A stretch of 20,854 nt of DNA. Source: Nocardioides sp. (GTDB lineage: Bacteria; Actinomycetota; Actinomycetes; Propionibacteriales; Nocardioidaceae). Each line of letters opens with the position of its first letter. Within the stretch, counting starts at the first letter, position 1. Below the pieces are notes generated by a model, which worked only from the letters and a program-made list of their open reading frames with translations, had not been told where the DNA came from and made no database searches. A program made the position numbers and the translations under genes. This document shows positions 3,992 to 16,781 of this stretch, one piece after another. The DNA is taken from assembly GCA_021166815.1 (NCBI GenBank), contig JAJPEO010000029.1, positions 1 to 20,854 on the forward strand, in the 5' to 3' direction.

Positions 3992-5119
3992 ATGTCCGAG
4001 TCACCCAAGCCCCTGCCCCTGGTCTTCTCCGAGCCGCGCGGTCGCAAGAAGCCGCCGCGGCACCTCGCCGACCTCGATGAGGCCGGTCGCAAGGAGCTCC
4101 TCGAGGAGATGGGGCTGCCGGGCTTCCGCGCCAAGCAGCTGTCCAACCACTACTTCGCCCGGCTGGTCGACGACCCGGCCGAGATGACCGACCTGCCGGC
4201 CGGTCAGCGCGACGAGCTGGTCTCCGCGCTCCTTCCCGAGCTCATGACGCCGCTGCGCACGATGGAGGCGGACAAGGGCACCACGCGGAAGACCCTGTGG
4301 CGGCTCTTCGACGGCGCGCTGGTCGAGTCGGTGCTCATGCGCTACACCGACCGGGTCACGATGTGCGTGTCGAGCCAGGCCGGCTGCGGCATGGCCTGCC
4401 CGTTCTGCGCGACCGGTCAGGGCGGCCTGCAGCGCAACATGTCGACCGCCGAGATCGTCGAGCAGGTCGTGGCGGGTGCCCGCTCGCTCGCCCGCGGCGA
4501 GGTGCCGGGCGGACCGGGTCGGGTGTCCAACGTCGTCTTCATGGGCATGGGCGAGCCCCTGGCCAACTACAAGGCCGTCCTGGGAGCCGTACGCCGCCTC
4601 ACCGACCCGAGCCCTGCCGGGCTCGGCATGTCCGCACGCGGCATCACGGTCTCCACGGTGGGCCTGGTCCCGCGCATCCTGCAGCTCGCCGACGAGGGCA
4701 TCCCGGTCACGCTCGCGCTGAGCCTGCATGCGCCCGACGACGAGCTGCGCAACGAGCTGGTGCCGATCAACACCCGGTTCTCGGTGGCCGAGACCGTCGA
4801 CGCCGCGTGGACCTACGCCGACAAGACCAAGCGCCGTGTCTCGATCGAGTACGCCATGATGCGCGGCATCAACGACCAGGCATGGCGGGCCGACCTGCTG
4901 GCCGACGTGCTGCTCGCGCGCGGGACCTGGGGCTGGGTGCACGTCAACCTCATCCCGCTCAACCCGACGCCCGGGTCGAAGTGGACCGCGAGCGATCCGG
5001 CCGACGAGCGTGAGTTCGTCCGGCGCCTCGAGGCCCGGGGCATCCCCACGACCGTGCGCGACACGCGTGGGCGTGAGATCGACGGGGCGTGCGGACAGCT
5101 CGCCGCCACCGAGGCCTGA
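3992..5119 (+). CDS. rlmN: Dual-specificity 23S rRNA A2503 / tRNA A37 C2-methyltransferase (radical SAM)
   Basis: RlmN methylates C2 of A2503 in 23S rRNA and A37 in some tRNAs by a radical-SAM, ping-pong mechanism. The 375-residue product has the N-terminal HhH-like/accessory region ([19 protein letters not shown]), the iron-sulphur motif C132-x3-C136-x2-C139 in [12 protein letters not shown], the [10 protein letters not shown] loop binding [23 protein letters not shown], the [13 protein letters not shown] segment, and the second mechanistic cysteine C367 in [12 protein letters not shown]. The methyl-carrier cysteine usually found near position 355 of the E. coli protein corresponds to this one. 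The start at ATG 3992 has no convincing Shine-Dalgarno; a GAAGAT hexamer nine bases upstream is a weak -10 candidate. The gene follows cdsA in many actinobacteria. Confidence 0.97.
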
Positions 5120-11212: not shown

Positions 11213-13102
11213 ATGGGTGACTACCAGGCGACCTACGACCGCTCGATCGACGACCCGGCGGGCTTCTGGGGCGAGCAGGCCGCGCTCGTCGACTGGATCC
11301 GCAAGCCGCAGCGGGTGCTCGACGACAGCCGGGCCCCGCACTACCGCTGGTTCCCCGACGCCACGCTCAACACCTGCTTCAACGCGTTGGACCGCCACGT
11401 CGTCAACGGCGGCGGCGAGCGGTTGGCCCTCATCTACGACTCCGCCGTCACCGGCGCGAAGCAGTCATGGACCTACGCCGAGCTCCTGGCCGAGGTGGCA
11501 GCCTTCGGCGGCGTGCTGCGCACCCTCGGTGTCGAGAAGGGCGACCGCGTCGTCATCTACATGCCGATGATCCCGGAGGCCGTGGTCGCGATGCTGGCGT
11601 GCGCGCGCATCGGCGCCGTGCACTCGGTGGTCTTCGGCGGCTTCGCTCCCCACGAGCTCGCCGTACGCATCGACGACGCCCGCCCCACGGTCCTCGTGAC
11701 GGCCAGCTGCGGCATCGAGCCCAGCCGGGTGGTGGAGTACAAGCCCTTCGTGGACCGCGCCCTCGAGCTGGCCGAGCACCCGCCGGCGTCGGTTGTCGTC
11801 AAGCAGCGGCCCGAGCTCGAGGCGAGCATGGTCGAGGGGCGCGACCTCGACTGGGACGTCGCCATGCGCGCCGGGCGCACCGACCCGGCGGCGGTGGTCG
11901 AAGTGGCCGCCACCGATCCCCTCTACGTCCTCTACACCTCCGGCACCACCGGCAAGCCCAAGGGCATCGTGCGCGACAACGGCGGTCACGCCGTCGCGCT
12001 GGCCTGGTCGCTGGGCAACATCTACGGCATCGGCCCCGGCGACGTCTGGTGGGCCGCCTCCGACGTGGGCTGGGTGGTCGGCCACTCCTACATCGTCTAC
12101 GCGCCCCTGATCGCCGGTGCGACGACCGTTCTGTACGAGGGCAAGCCGGTCGGGACGCCGGACGCCGGCGCGTTCTGGCGGGTCGTCTCCGACTACGGCG
12201 TCAAGGCGCTCTTCACCGCGCCCACCGCCATCCGGGCGGTGAAGAAGGAGGACCCCGAGGGCAGGCTGATCAAGGACTACGACCTCTCCTCGCTCGAGAC
12301 GCTGTTCCTCGCCGGCGAGCGCCTCGACCCCGACACCTACCACTGGGCGTCCCAGCACCTGGGGGTGCCGGTGGTCGACAACTGGTGGCAGACCGAGACC
12401 GGTTGGCCCATCGCCTCCAACCTGCGCGGTCTGGAGCCGATGGACATCAAGCCGGGCTCACCGTCGGTGGCCGTGCCCGGGTACGCCGTGAAGGTCCTCG
12501 ACGCCAACGGCGCCGAGGTGCCGCCGGGGGAGGAGGGTGCCATCTGCATCCGGCTGCCGCTGCCGCCCGGGACGCTCCCGACCCTGTGGGGCGACGAGGA
12601 GCGCTTCGTCTCCTCCTACCTCTCCGCGTTCGACGGCTACTACCTCTCCGGTGACGGGGGGTACGTGGACGAGGACGGCTACCTCTTCGTCATGGGCCGC
12701 ACCGACGACGTGATCAACGTGGCCGGCCACCGCCTGTCCACCGGGTCGATGGAGGCCGTGATCGCCCAGCACCCGGCCGTGGCGGAGTGCGCCGTGATCG
12801 GTGTCGCCGACTCCATGAAGGGCCAGATGCCGCGCGGCTTCGTGGTGCTCAAGGCGGGTGTCGAGGCCGACCCCGAGGAGATCCGGGCGGACCTGGTGCG
12901 GATGGTGCGCGAGGAGATCGGCGCGGTCGCCTCCTTCAAGGAGGTCGAGGTGGTCGGGGGCCTGCCCAAGACCCGGTCGGGCAAGATCCTGCGCAAGACC
13001 ATGCGTGAGATCGCCGACGGCAAGGACGCGGCCGTCCCGTCCACGATCGAGGACCCGGCGGTGCTGGACGACCTGCGTCCGGTGCTGCGCCGGGAGCAGT
13101 GA
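11213..13102 (+). CDS. prpE: Propionyl-CoA synthetase-type acyl-CoA synthetase (AMP-forming)
   Basis: A 629-residue ANL-superfamily acyl-CoA synthetase, closest by eye to PrpE/ACSS3, which activates propionate (and more slowly acetate) via an acyl-adenylate. The N-terminal ACAS-type region reads DYQATYDRSIDDPAGFWGEQ. The phosphate loop is YTSGTTGKPKG (241-251), followed by the PrpE-like RDNGGHAVALAWSLGNIYGI and WWAASDVGWVVGHSYIVYAPL. The A5 motif is NWWQTETGWPI, A7 includes YYLSGDGGYVDEDGYL, the hinge region is MGRTDDVINVAGHRLSTG, and the C-terminal catalytic lysine is K591 in RSGKILRK, the usual acetylation-controlled site. ATG 11213 is the natural N terminus. Neighbours give no metabolic context; prp cycle or methylmalonyl genes are not in the window. 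Acetate-specific Acs is the main alternative. Confidence 0.9.
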   Translation: MGDYQATYDRSIDDPAGFWGEQAALVDWIRKPQRVLDDSRAPHYRWFPDATLNTCFNALDRHVVNGGGERLALIYDSAVTGAKQSWTYAELLAEVAAFGGVLRTLGVEKGDRVVIYMPMIPEAVVAMLACARIGAVHSVVFGGFAPHELAVRIDDARPTVLVTASCGIEPSRVVEYKPFVDRALELAEHPPASVVVKQRPELEASMVEGRDLDWDVAMRAGRTDPAAVVEVAATDPLYVLYTSGTTGKPKGIVRDNGGHAVALAWSLGNIYGIGPGDVWWAASDVGWVVGHSYIVYAPLIAGATTVLYEGKPVGTPDAGAFWRVVSDYGVKALFTAPTAIRAVKKEDPEGRLIKDYDLSSLETLFLAGERLDPDTYHWASQHLGVPVVDNWWQTETGWPIASNLRGLEPMDIKPGSPSVAVPGYAVKVLDANGAEVPPGEEGAICIRLPLPPGTLPTLWGDEERFVSSYLSAFDGYYLSGDGGYVDEDGYLFVMGRTDDVINVAGHRLSTGSMEAVIAQHPAVAECAVIGVADSMKGQMPRGFVVLKAGVEADPEEIRADLVRMVREEIGAVASFKEVEVVGGLPKTRSGKILRKTMREIADGKDAAVPSTIEDPAVLDDLRPVLRREQ

Positions 13103-13164: not shown

Positions 13165-14214
13165 GTGACTGCGCGCGACATCGTGATCCTTGGATCCACC
13201 GGATCGATCGGCACCCAGGCGCTGGACCTCGTCCGGGCCAACCCCGACCGCTTCCGCGTCGTGGGCCTCACGGCCGGGGGGTCGAACCCCGAGCTCTTCG
13301 AGCAGCAGGTCGCCGAGTTTGCGCCCAGCGTCTCCGGGCTGGGGGAGGAGGCCTCCGTCGGCCTGCGACCCACCCTCGCCGCGCTCTCGGCCGGCAACGC
13401 GCTCGCGCTGGCCAACAAGGAGTCGCTCATCATCGGCGGCCCACTGGTGAGGGAGCGTGCGCGGCCCGGTCAGATCGTGCCGGTCGACTCCGAGCACAGC
13501 GCCATCGCCCAGAGCCTGCTGGCGGGCCGGGCCGAGGAGGTGCGCCGGCTGGTCCTGACCGCGTCCGGTGGGCCGTTCCGGGGCCGCTCCCGCGCCGAGC
13601 TGGAGAGCGTGACTCCCGCGCAGGCCCTGGCCCACCCCAACTTCGCGATGGGCCGGGTCATCACGACCAACTCCGCGACGCTGGTCAACAAGGGCCTGGA
13701 GGTCATCGAGGCCCACCTGCTCTTCGACGTTCCCTTCGACCGCATCGACGTCGTGGTGCACCCCCAGCAGTACATCCACTCCATGGTGGAGTTCGTCGAC
13801 GGCGCGGTGGTCGCCCAGCTGGGCCTGCCCACGATGATGGTCCCCATCGCGCTGGGGATGGGATGGCCCGAGCGGGTGCCCGACGCGGAGGCGGCGATCG
13901 ACTGGACGAAGGCGGCCGACTGGCGCTTCGAGCCGCTGGATGACGAGGTGTTCCCCGCCGTCCGGCTCGCGCGCGAGGCCGGCGAGCGCGGCGGTACCGC
14001 GCCGGCGGTCTACAACGCCGCCAACGAGGTGGCCGTCGACGCGTTCCACGACGGGCGGATCCGGTTCACCGACATCGTGACGACGATCGCCACCGTGCTC
14101 AGGGACCACGACGTACGCTCTTCCCAGCACCTCACCGTTGACGACGTGCTCGCTGCCGACGCCTGGGCACGGGGCGAGGCGTCCCGCCTGATCGAGAAGG
14201 ACCCACCGCGATGA
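13165..14214 (+). CDS. dxr: 1-deoxy-D-xylulose 5-phosphate reductoisomerase with an internal deletion in the NADPH domain
   Basis: Dxr (IspC) converts DXP to 2-C-methyl-D-erythritol 4-phosphate, the committed MEP-pathway step. At 349 residues it is short (E. coli 398, M. tuberculosis about 413). The Rossmann start GSTGSIGTQ (10-18) and LANKES (82-87) are present, as are the metal ligands D108 and E110 in PVDSEHSA and E179, the SGGPFRG loop, H157 in AHPNFAMG, and S170/N175/K176 in [15 protein letters not shown]. From D108 to E179 is 71 residues, as in M. tuberculosis (151 to 222). All the missing length is between residues 39 and 68: ...SGLGEEASV runs straight into GLRPTLAAL, so the conserved DVVLNxxxG strand and preceding segment are absent, in frame. 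The stop overlaps rseP by ATGA. Activity is doubtful unless the deletion is an assembly error. Confidence 0.93.
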
Positions 14215-15557
14215 CCGCGCTCCTCTACACCCTCGGTGTCGTGGCGTTCGTCGTGGCGATCCTCGTCTCGATCGGCCTGCACGAGCTCGGGCACCTGGTC
14301 CCGGCCAAGCGCTTCGGGTGCAAGGTGCCCCAGTGGTTCATCGGCTTCGGGCCCACGGTGTGGAGCAAGAGGATCGGCGAGACCGAGTACGGCATCAAGG
14401 CGATCCCGCTGGGCGGCTACGTCAAGATCGTCGGGATGCTCCCGCCCGGGGCCCACGACCTCGTCGAGGAGACCACCTACACCGAGGCGGGGGAGCCCGT
14501 CCACAAGGTGCGCCGCTCCAACACCGGCCTGTTCACCCAGCTCATCTCCGACGCGCGCGCGGCCGAGTGGGAGTACGTCGCGGCCCATGACGCCGACCGG
14601 CTCTTCTACCGGCTGCCGTGGTGGCAGAAGGTGATCGTCATGGCCGGTGGACCGAGCGTCAACATCGCCATCGCGTTCCTCATCTTCACCCCCCTGTTCG
14701 CCACCTACGGCAACCCCGGCGACACCGTCGTCGAGCCCGTGGTGAAGGACGTCTCCGAGTGCGTCATCCCCGTCAAGGAGCTGCCGCGCTCGTGCACCGC
14801 CGAGGACCCGGAGGCGCCTGCCCACGCTGCCGGGCTCCAGCCCGGTGACGTCTTCGTGTCGTTCAACGGCGAGCCGGTCACCGACTGGGCCAGCCTGCAG
14901 CAGGACATCCGCGACAACCGTGACGGCGAGGCGGCCATCGTCGTGCGCCGTGACGGCGAGGAGCTGACGCTGCGCACCAACACCACGGTCCAGCTGCGCT
15001 ACTCCTCCGCCGAGGACCCCCAGCTGGTCGAGATGGGCTTCCTCGGCGTCGAGCCGGTCAACTACAACGCCACCGGCGGCCCGGTCTACACCGCACAGCA
15101 GATGGGCCACATGACCGCCCAGACCGCGGAGGCCCTGGTCCACCTGCCGGCCAAGGTGTGGGGTGTGGCGCGAGCGATCGTCGGGCTCGAGGAGCGCGAT
15201 CCGCAGGGCCCGGTCTCCATCGTCGGTGGAGGTCGCTTCGCCGGGGAGACGGCGGCCCACGAGGCGTTCCCGCTGGAGGACAAGCTGGTGACGCTGGCGT
15301 TCCTCGTTGCCAGCTTCAACCTCTTCATCGGGTTGTTCAACTTCGTCCCGCTGCTGCCCCTCGACGGTGGGCACATCGCCGGGGCGTTGTACGAGGCCGT
15401 ACGCCGTGCGTTCGCCCGGGTGCTCGGCCGTCCCGACCCCGGCCACGTCGACGTGGCCAAGCTGCTGCCCGTGGCCTACGTCGTGGGCCTGGCCATGCTC
15501 GTGATGGGCGTCGTCCTGATCGTCGGGGACCTGGTCGTCCCGCTGCACATCTCCTGA
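14211..15557 (+). CDS. rseP: Site-2 intramembrane metalloprotease (RseP/Rip1 family, M50)
   Basis: A polytopic M50 protease performing regulated intramembrane proteolysis, for example of anti-sigma factors (RseP in E. coli, Rip1 in mycobacteria). It is 448 residues. The zinc motif HELGH (H24, E25, H28) lies in the first membrane helix. The conserved GPTVWS...[17 protein letters not shown] segment follows at 48-76. A second helix lies near 141-163 ([19 protein letters not shown]). A single PDZ domain covers about 205-265 ([17 protein letters not shown]), and the third zinc-ligand motif LDGG (D385) is in [15 protein letters not shown] within the third helix; a C-terminal helix ends the protein. 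The ATG overlaps the dxr stop by four bases, with GAAGGA about ten bases upstream, so translation is coupled to dxr. Confidence 0.96.
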
Positions 15558-15616
15558 CCGGGCGTCGTCAGGGCGGGTGCCGCACCGGCGATGCGGGTCG
15601 CCGTGGACGCCGCTCC

Positions 15617-15622
15617 TAGAAT
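15617..15622 (+). promoter_or_regulatory. Putative -10 element of a leaderless transcript (ispG)
   Basis: TAGAAT is a strong TAnnnT match ending seven bases before ATG 15630. With no Shine-Dalgarno in front, this supports ATG 15630 over the upstream in-frame ATG at 15591 and gives ispG a promoter separate from dxr-rseP. Confidence 0.55.
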
Positions 15623-15629
15623 CGGTGGC

Positions 15630-16781
15630 ATGAGCGCTGTTGGTCTCGGCATGCCCCCCATGCCCGCACCCGTCCTGTCTCCTCGCCGTCCCACCCGACA
15701 GATCAAGGTCGGGTCGGTGGGGGTGGGCAGCGACTCGCCCGTGTCGGTGCAGTCGATGACCACGACGCTGACCTCCGACATCAACTCCACCCTGCAGCAG
15801 ATCGCCGAGCTCACCGCGGCGGGCTGCGACATCGTCCGTGTCGCCTGCCCGAGCGCCGACGACGCAGAGGCCCTGCCGGCGATCGCGAAGAAGTCGCAGA
15901 TCCCGGTCATCGCCGACATCCACTTCCAGCCGAAGTACGTCTTCGCGGCCATCGAGGCCGGGTGCGCCGCCGTGCGAGTCAACCCGGGCAACATCAAGAA
16001 GTTCGACGACCAGGTCAAGGAGATCGCCCAGGCCGCCGCCGACCACGGCACGTCGATCCGCATCGGCGTCAACGCCGGCTCCCTGGACAAGCGGCTGCTG
16101 GAGAAGTACGGCAAGGCCACGCCCGAGGCGCTGGTCGAGTCGGCGGTGTGGGAGGCCAGCCTGTTCGAGGAGCACGGCTTCCGCGACTTCAAGATCTCGG
16201 TCAAGCACCACGACCCGGTGACGATGATCCGCGCCTACGAGCTGCTCGCCGAGCGGGGCGACTGGCCCCTCCACCTCGGCGTCACCGAGGCCGGCCCCGC
16301 CTTCCAGGGCACGATCAAGTCCGCCACGGCGTTCGGCATCCTGCTCGGCAAGGGCATCGGTGACACGATCCGCGTGTCCCTCTCGGCGCCGCCGGTCGAG
16401 GAGGTCAAGGTCGGCCTGCAGATCCTGCAGTCGCTGGGCCTGCGCGAGCGCAAGCTCGAGATCGTCTCCTGCCCCAGCTGCGGGCGGGCCCAGGTCGACG
16501 TCTACAAGCTCGCCGAGGAGGTCACCGCCGGCCTCGAGGGCATGGAGGTGCCGCTCCGCGTCGCCGTCATGGGGTGCGTGGTGAACGGACCCGGTGAGGC
16601 GCGCGAGGCCGACCTGGGTGTCGCCTCGGGCAACGGCAAGGGCCAGATCTTCGTCAAGGGCGAGGTGATCAAGACCGTGCCGGAGTCGCAGATCGTGGAG
16701 ACCCTCATCGAGGAGGCCATGCGCATCGCCGAGAGCATGGAGCCCGTCGAGGGCGCCGAGGCGAGCGTCACGGTCTCCTGA
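15630..16781 (+). CDS. ispG: 4-hydroxy-3-methylbut-2-en-1-yl diphosphate synthase (flavodoxin/ferredoxin-dependent)
   Basis: IspG (GcpE) reduces 2-C-methyl-erythritol 2,4-cyclodiphosphate to HMBPP, the penultimate MEP step. From ATG 15630 it is 383 residues, family length. The TIM-barrel half shows [11 protein letters not shown] (40-50), [30 protein letters not shown] (115-123), ISVKHHDP (189-196), GVTEAG and [24 protein letters not shown]. The C-terminal 4Fe-4S domain has C281-PS-C284 and C316 in [10 protein letters not shown], plus the cluster-ligand or catalytic E323. All key residues are intact, in contrast to the damaged dxr two genes upstream. It begins 72 bases after rseP and has its own probable promoter. 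Confidence 0.97.

Follow-up and report, generated by a model that had tools for sequence, protein, structure and literature searches.

Does the dxr gene of this Nocardioides sp. contig record a real loss within the cofactor-binding domain of its product, or a fault in the assembled sequence? dxr is a normally essential gene of isoprenoid synthesis, and Dxr is a well-studied drug target. If the loss is real, it would mean that a step that is normally essential has disappeared in nature and been substituted in some way, or else it would offer a test of how far the NADPH fold is needed in this drug target. If it is a fault, the in-frame loss of 54 bp leaves a clean frame that still passes the family model TIGR00243, and annotation may miss it. 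The window, by which we mean the whole stretch of 20,854 nucleotides that was analysed, is contig C47 of assembly G000, which comprises 400 contigs and 2.83 Mb and is 89.74% complete.

A Dxr lacking part of its NADPH domain

The protein resembles type I Dxr/IspC (TIGR00243; PF02670, PF08436, PF13288) in its GSTGSIG dinucleotide motif, its NKES motif, its D-S-E metal site and its catalytic and C-terminal domains, and its gene is accompanied by rseP and ispG (Table 1). Its TIGR00243 score of 359.8 bits exceeds the equivalog cut-off of 315.7, while two other NCBIfam Dxr models, scored on the window protein alone, fall below theirs (382.5 vs 461 and 327.8 vs 515). It differs from type I Dxr in the absence of 18 residues containing D-V-V-L-N-G-I-T-G ahead of the GLRPTLAAL helix, so that its NADPH domain is incomplete, without the D-V-V-x-N-G strand and the loop that follows. 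As the original prediction had noted for positions near 13357-13362, SGLGEEASV abuts GLRPTLAAL at Val65|Gly66 with the frame unbroken (codons of Ser64, 13354-13356; Val65, 13357-13359; Gly66, 13360-13362). The predicted distance of 71 residues between the metal ligands was likewise recovered, between D108 and E179, conserved acids whose role in metal binding is described in PMC9782300.

Table 1 Features of the dxr region in the window
Feature	Position	Strand	Description	Basis
dxr (ispC)	13165-14214	+	GTG start, 349 aa, single open frame, without 18 residues of the NADPH domain	
LGSTGSIG dinucleotide-binding motif codons	13189-13212	+	retained	
Deletion junction, TCC GTC GGC	13354-13362	+	exact position may shift within GTCG, 13357-13360	alignment to 29 relatives
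D108-S109-E110 codons, conserved acids of the metal site	13486-13494	+	retained	
rseP-type site-2 protease (Peptidase_M50, PDZ)	14211-15557	+	448 aa	
ispG (gcpE)	15591-16781	+	intact; start may be internal (15651)	

The N-terminal model PF02670 matches the window protein in two pieces, at model positions 1-53 and 101-129, leaving 54-100 unmatched. It also splits into two stretches on the intact relative P0002, so part of this gap is normal for the genus.

Eighteen private and sixteen shared residues

Against 4oof, the best-matching solved Dxr chain, which we take to be the M. tuberculosis enzyme, window residues 6-52 correspond to chain residues 29-75 and residues 63-343 to 120-400, the second block without a gap, which bears out the expectation that the remainder of the protein keeps its spacing. 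The window Dxr is 34 residues shorter than this chain, and the whole difference lies before the metal site. However, the Nocardioides-type Dxr P0002, which is identical to the window protein at 307 of 343 aligned positions, also falls short of 4oof, by 16 residues (6-358 vs 29-397). The two share this short linker and the downstream part, whereas the 18-residue segment is present only in the relatives. Sixteen residues are thus absent from relatives in common and 18 are private to the window, and the original figure of about 34 missing residues stands as a comparison with 4oof but not as the size of the private loss. In these alignments the event is a loss of 54 bp, corresponding approximately to E-A-A-x-x-x-C-D-V-V-L-N-G-I-T-G-A-V of the relatives, with the other 16 residues representing a normal trait of the genus.

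The distance from GSTGSIG to DSEHS puts this division in numbers. It is 98 in the window protein and 116 in all 119 other proteins among the matches listed, a set made up of the 120 best of 8000 scored with the window's own included (two of them, P0072 and P0085, carry names other than Nocardioides). Of those with an organism name, the one ranked highest, P0009, comes from Nocardioides sp. J2M5. A search for dxr loci covered 58 genomes, the window's own among them, and 25 of the 36 same-genus relatives were read letter by letter. Of the 29 other loci, 23 have a distance of 116 and 2 a distance of 120, which together make up the 25 same-genus loci, and all four same-order loci have 150. A distance of 116 also occurs in the Microbacterium locus L068. 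Ahead of the D-V-V-x-N-G strand, the linker of the same-genus loci L004-L025, L027, L028 and L032 is 30-34 residues shorter than that of four same-order loci from another family.

Loss of the segment was seen in none of the 109 other loci among the matches listed (L003-L112 without the window's own), a set that joins 30 loci from the genome search with the best 80 of 593, in which some genomes occur twice and near kin may be absent. Of L003-L112, 108 loci were measured by script and two, L050 and L079, by eye; three proteins and four loci that missed the strict motif pattern hold the segment with substitutions. The window Dxr forms a cluster of a single sequence.

Conserved columns in the missing segment

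We aligned the window Dxr with 51 selected relatives: 16 proteins chosen from the 119 others listed, and 35 loci from the set of 80. The window protein keeps 103 of the 107 columns that are invariant in these relatives, and the four it lacks (V, N, T and G) all lie inside the segment. Where conservation is at least 94%, 8 of 164 columns are missing, every one again inside the segment, and the protein deviates at no other conserved column. PMC11346426 describes the N-terminal domain of a solved Dxr as a Rossmann fold built on seven parallel strands, and the missing stretch probably comprises one of these strands together with the loop before the next helix.

Selection on dxr and the quality of the assembly

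Pairwise dN/dS against the related genome G036 is 0.21 for dxr, 0.23 for ispG and 0.58 for rseP, and within dxr it is 0.13 for codons 1-65, 0.19 for codons 66-150 and 0.26 for codons 151-349; these values are averaged over both lineages and hence give no date for the deletion. Together with the conserved columns kept outside the segment, they agree with the earlier statement that the rest of dxr has no sign of decay, as far as its sequence indicates.

As a control on the assembly, 63 contigs of G000, with 407,206 bases or roughly 14% of the assembled sequence, were compared with 1.2 Mb of G036, which matched 72 genes at a level of at least 65% (21,442 residues on 16 contigs). No frame changes were seen in these 72 genes. 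Events of at least 5 residues comprised nine deletions and four insertions, the largest insertion being of 13 residues in a gene 69% identical. Only three deletions reach at least 8 residues: that of 18 in dxr, one of 10 in a gene with an overall identity of 66%, and one of 8 near the N-terminus, five residues away from it, in the gene at 3992-5116, whose identity is 0.90 (0.80 and 0.85 in the flanks). The dxr deletion is therefore the sole interior deletion of at least 8 residues in those of the 72 genes that are at least 70% identical. Stop codons fall inside six matches between G000 and G036, four of them at an identity of at least 0.70 and the others at 0.26 and 0.59. Of the four, one has its stop ahead of the likely start and another at the extreme C-terminus, and the two other matches look like open reading frames called in the wrong frame. 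Widespread assembly damage is not supported by this 72-gene sample.

Search for a bypass

The original prediction had considered compensation by a second Dxr, a DRL-type enzyme or mevalonate genes. DXR-II/DRL catalyses the same reaction as Dxr with no significant sequence similarity to DXR-I (PMC3847144). In G000, at 89.74% completeness, we found one dxr and no second copy, no match to the DRL_cat domain (PF21135), no HMG-CoA synthase (PF01154) and no diphosphomevalonate decarboxylase (PF18376). The synthase model matched 7 and the decarboxylase model 3 of 14 control genomes; the control genomes gave no DRL_cat match either, although this model does match in 13 of 148 genomes of the class. The test of the mevalonate route covered the synthase, the decarboxylase and the reductase, and all these absences are provisional, since the assembly lacks a tenth of the genome. 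ispH is present, as is dxs, cut by a contig start; with ispG, these genes indicate that the pathway is otherwise present in G000.

The genome does contain an HMG-CoA reductase gene, on contig C258 (L135:3-959, minus strand), where it is cut by the contig end and preceded by a GAF/PucR-type regulator. An HMG-CoA reductase is present in 6 of 36 same-genus relatives. The gene order of C258 recurs in two relatives, G001 and G003, where it is followed by lyase-like and membrane-protein genes, which a Pfam scan of the G003 genes assigned to the HMGL-like family and to a TctA-type transporter; C258 ends within the reductase gene, so the lyase is unseen in G000 itself. This layout suggests that the locus may serve the degradation of mevalonate, or its use as food, rather than its synthesis. 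Given the catabolic-looking arrangement and the lack of a synthase and a decarboxylase among the genes found, we rejected a mevalonate bypass through this reductase, and none of the proposed forms of compensation was found in the assembled part of the genome. Four same-genus genomes have another type of HMG-CoA reductase, which scores better (loci L137-L140 in G027, G025, G029 and G016, respectively) and lies in neighbourhoods that differ from that of the catabolic type.

Sequence context of the junction

Short repeats 54 bp apart are found at the position of the junction in some relatives, as GTCG in 7 of 29 and CGGTCG in 3 of 29 (raw counts, with no chance level set); the remaining 19 have a shorter repeat or none, except for CGGT in one. 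Such repeats serve slippage in the cell and jumps by a polymerase or during assembly alike, and so leave the choice between a lesion and a fault undecided. A strong hairpin at the deletion was considered and rejected: inverted repeats do occur in G036, but the folding of the stretch there lies within the range of shuffled sequences (z -1.25; matched by 21 of 200 shuffles).

Weighing the explanations

We lean towards the view that the assembled 54-bp loss is a fault of assembly or amplification, or a minor variant, rather than a fixed state of the species. An assembly or sequencing deletion, one of the explanations offered by the original prediction, fits best with a deletion that is private to one sequence, with a constrained gene whose remaining conserved columns are kept, and with an assembly of 400 contigs at 89.74% completeness; we favour a fault or a non-fixed variant because the gene is normally essential and otherwise maintained, the loss is seen once, the assembly is fragmentary and no bypass is visible. 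A Dxr without the segment presumably could not work and the cell presumably needs Dxr, in which case living cells of this species probably carry a different sequence. The starting point would be an ordinary Nocardioides dxr from whose assembled sequence 54 bp were dropped in frame: a polymerase, or a read joined wrongly, may have jumped over the GC-rich stretch, perhaps from one short repeat to another, and this path would have been kept by the assembler. Several observations count against a fault. The loss is of exactly 18 codons, for which the chance is one in three, and the sampled 72 genes of the rest of the assembly are clean; a simple base error would not suffice to skip 54 bp, which takes chimeric molecules or a real variant; the GTCG or CGGTCG junction repeat, of 4-6 bp, is missing from 19 of the 29 relatives; and in G036 the stretch has no exceptional folding potential.

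The same clean, in-frame loss in a gene whose conserved columns are otherwise undisturbed is also what a very recent slippage deletion would leave, one that inactivates Dxr in the sampled lineage and is tolerated temporarily, or is covered by outside supply or from the tenth of the genome that is unassembled, for example by a second dxr. The short repeats that 10 of 29 relatives have at the junction and the incompleteness of the assembly accord with such a young lesion, but neither a second dxr nor a DRL domain, HMG-CoA synthase or diphosphomevalonate decarboxylase was found in what is assembled, and the HMG-CoA reductase found is of a kind that in G003 lies beside a transporter gene and one of the HMGL-like family. 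We regard this explanation as unlikely. More doubtful again is a real, working Dxr that dispenses with the strand and loop, in which the sheet would close up and the remaining motifs would hold NADPH. If the allele is fixed, the intact columns and the lack of a visible bypass imply that the enzyme should work; furthermore, the TIGR00243 cut-off is still exceeded and the genus tolerates a shorter linker immediately before the segment. Against this, the segment carries the invariant V, N, T and G of a cofactor domain built as a Rossmann fold (PMC11346426), it is lost in none of the other proteins and loci listed, and the window protein, the one protein scored with them, falls below the cut-offs of two NCBIfam Dxr models. 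That a functional Dxr without the D-V-V-x-N-G strand and the T-G loop should be the sole reductoisomerase of the cell strikes us as quite improbable; if it were so, the cofactor fold would be able to do without a core strand.

The notion of an unusually compact NADPH domain, common to the relatives and within ordinary family variation, accounts for the 16 residues that relatives also lack, and the distances of 116 or 120 in all 25 same-genus loci against 150 in all four same-order loci agree with it. It fails for the other 18, which are present in every relative examined, and as an explanation of the whole 34 it is refuted to that extent; we give it very little credence for the event itself. 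Close relatives sharing the shorter form would, according to the original prediction, speak against the loss, and they do share it for the 16 residues but not for the 18.

Genes flanking dxr

Directly upstream of dxr lies an acyl-CoA synthetase gene (ACAS_N, AMP-binding; 11213-13102), for which tblastn against an 800-kb stretch of G036 containing dxr returned no match at E 1e-20. Downstream, ispG is intact, as had been predicted. The start of rseP overlaps the dxr stop codon by 4 bp, and its product is as long as most relatives among the matches listed. The nearest separate protein to rseP is 83% identical, and the cluster to which the window rseP belongs has two member sequences on one contig; a second close rseP may exist.
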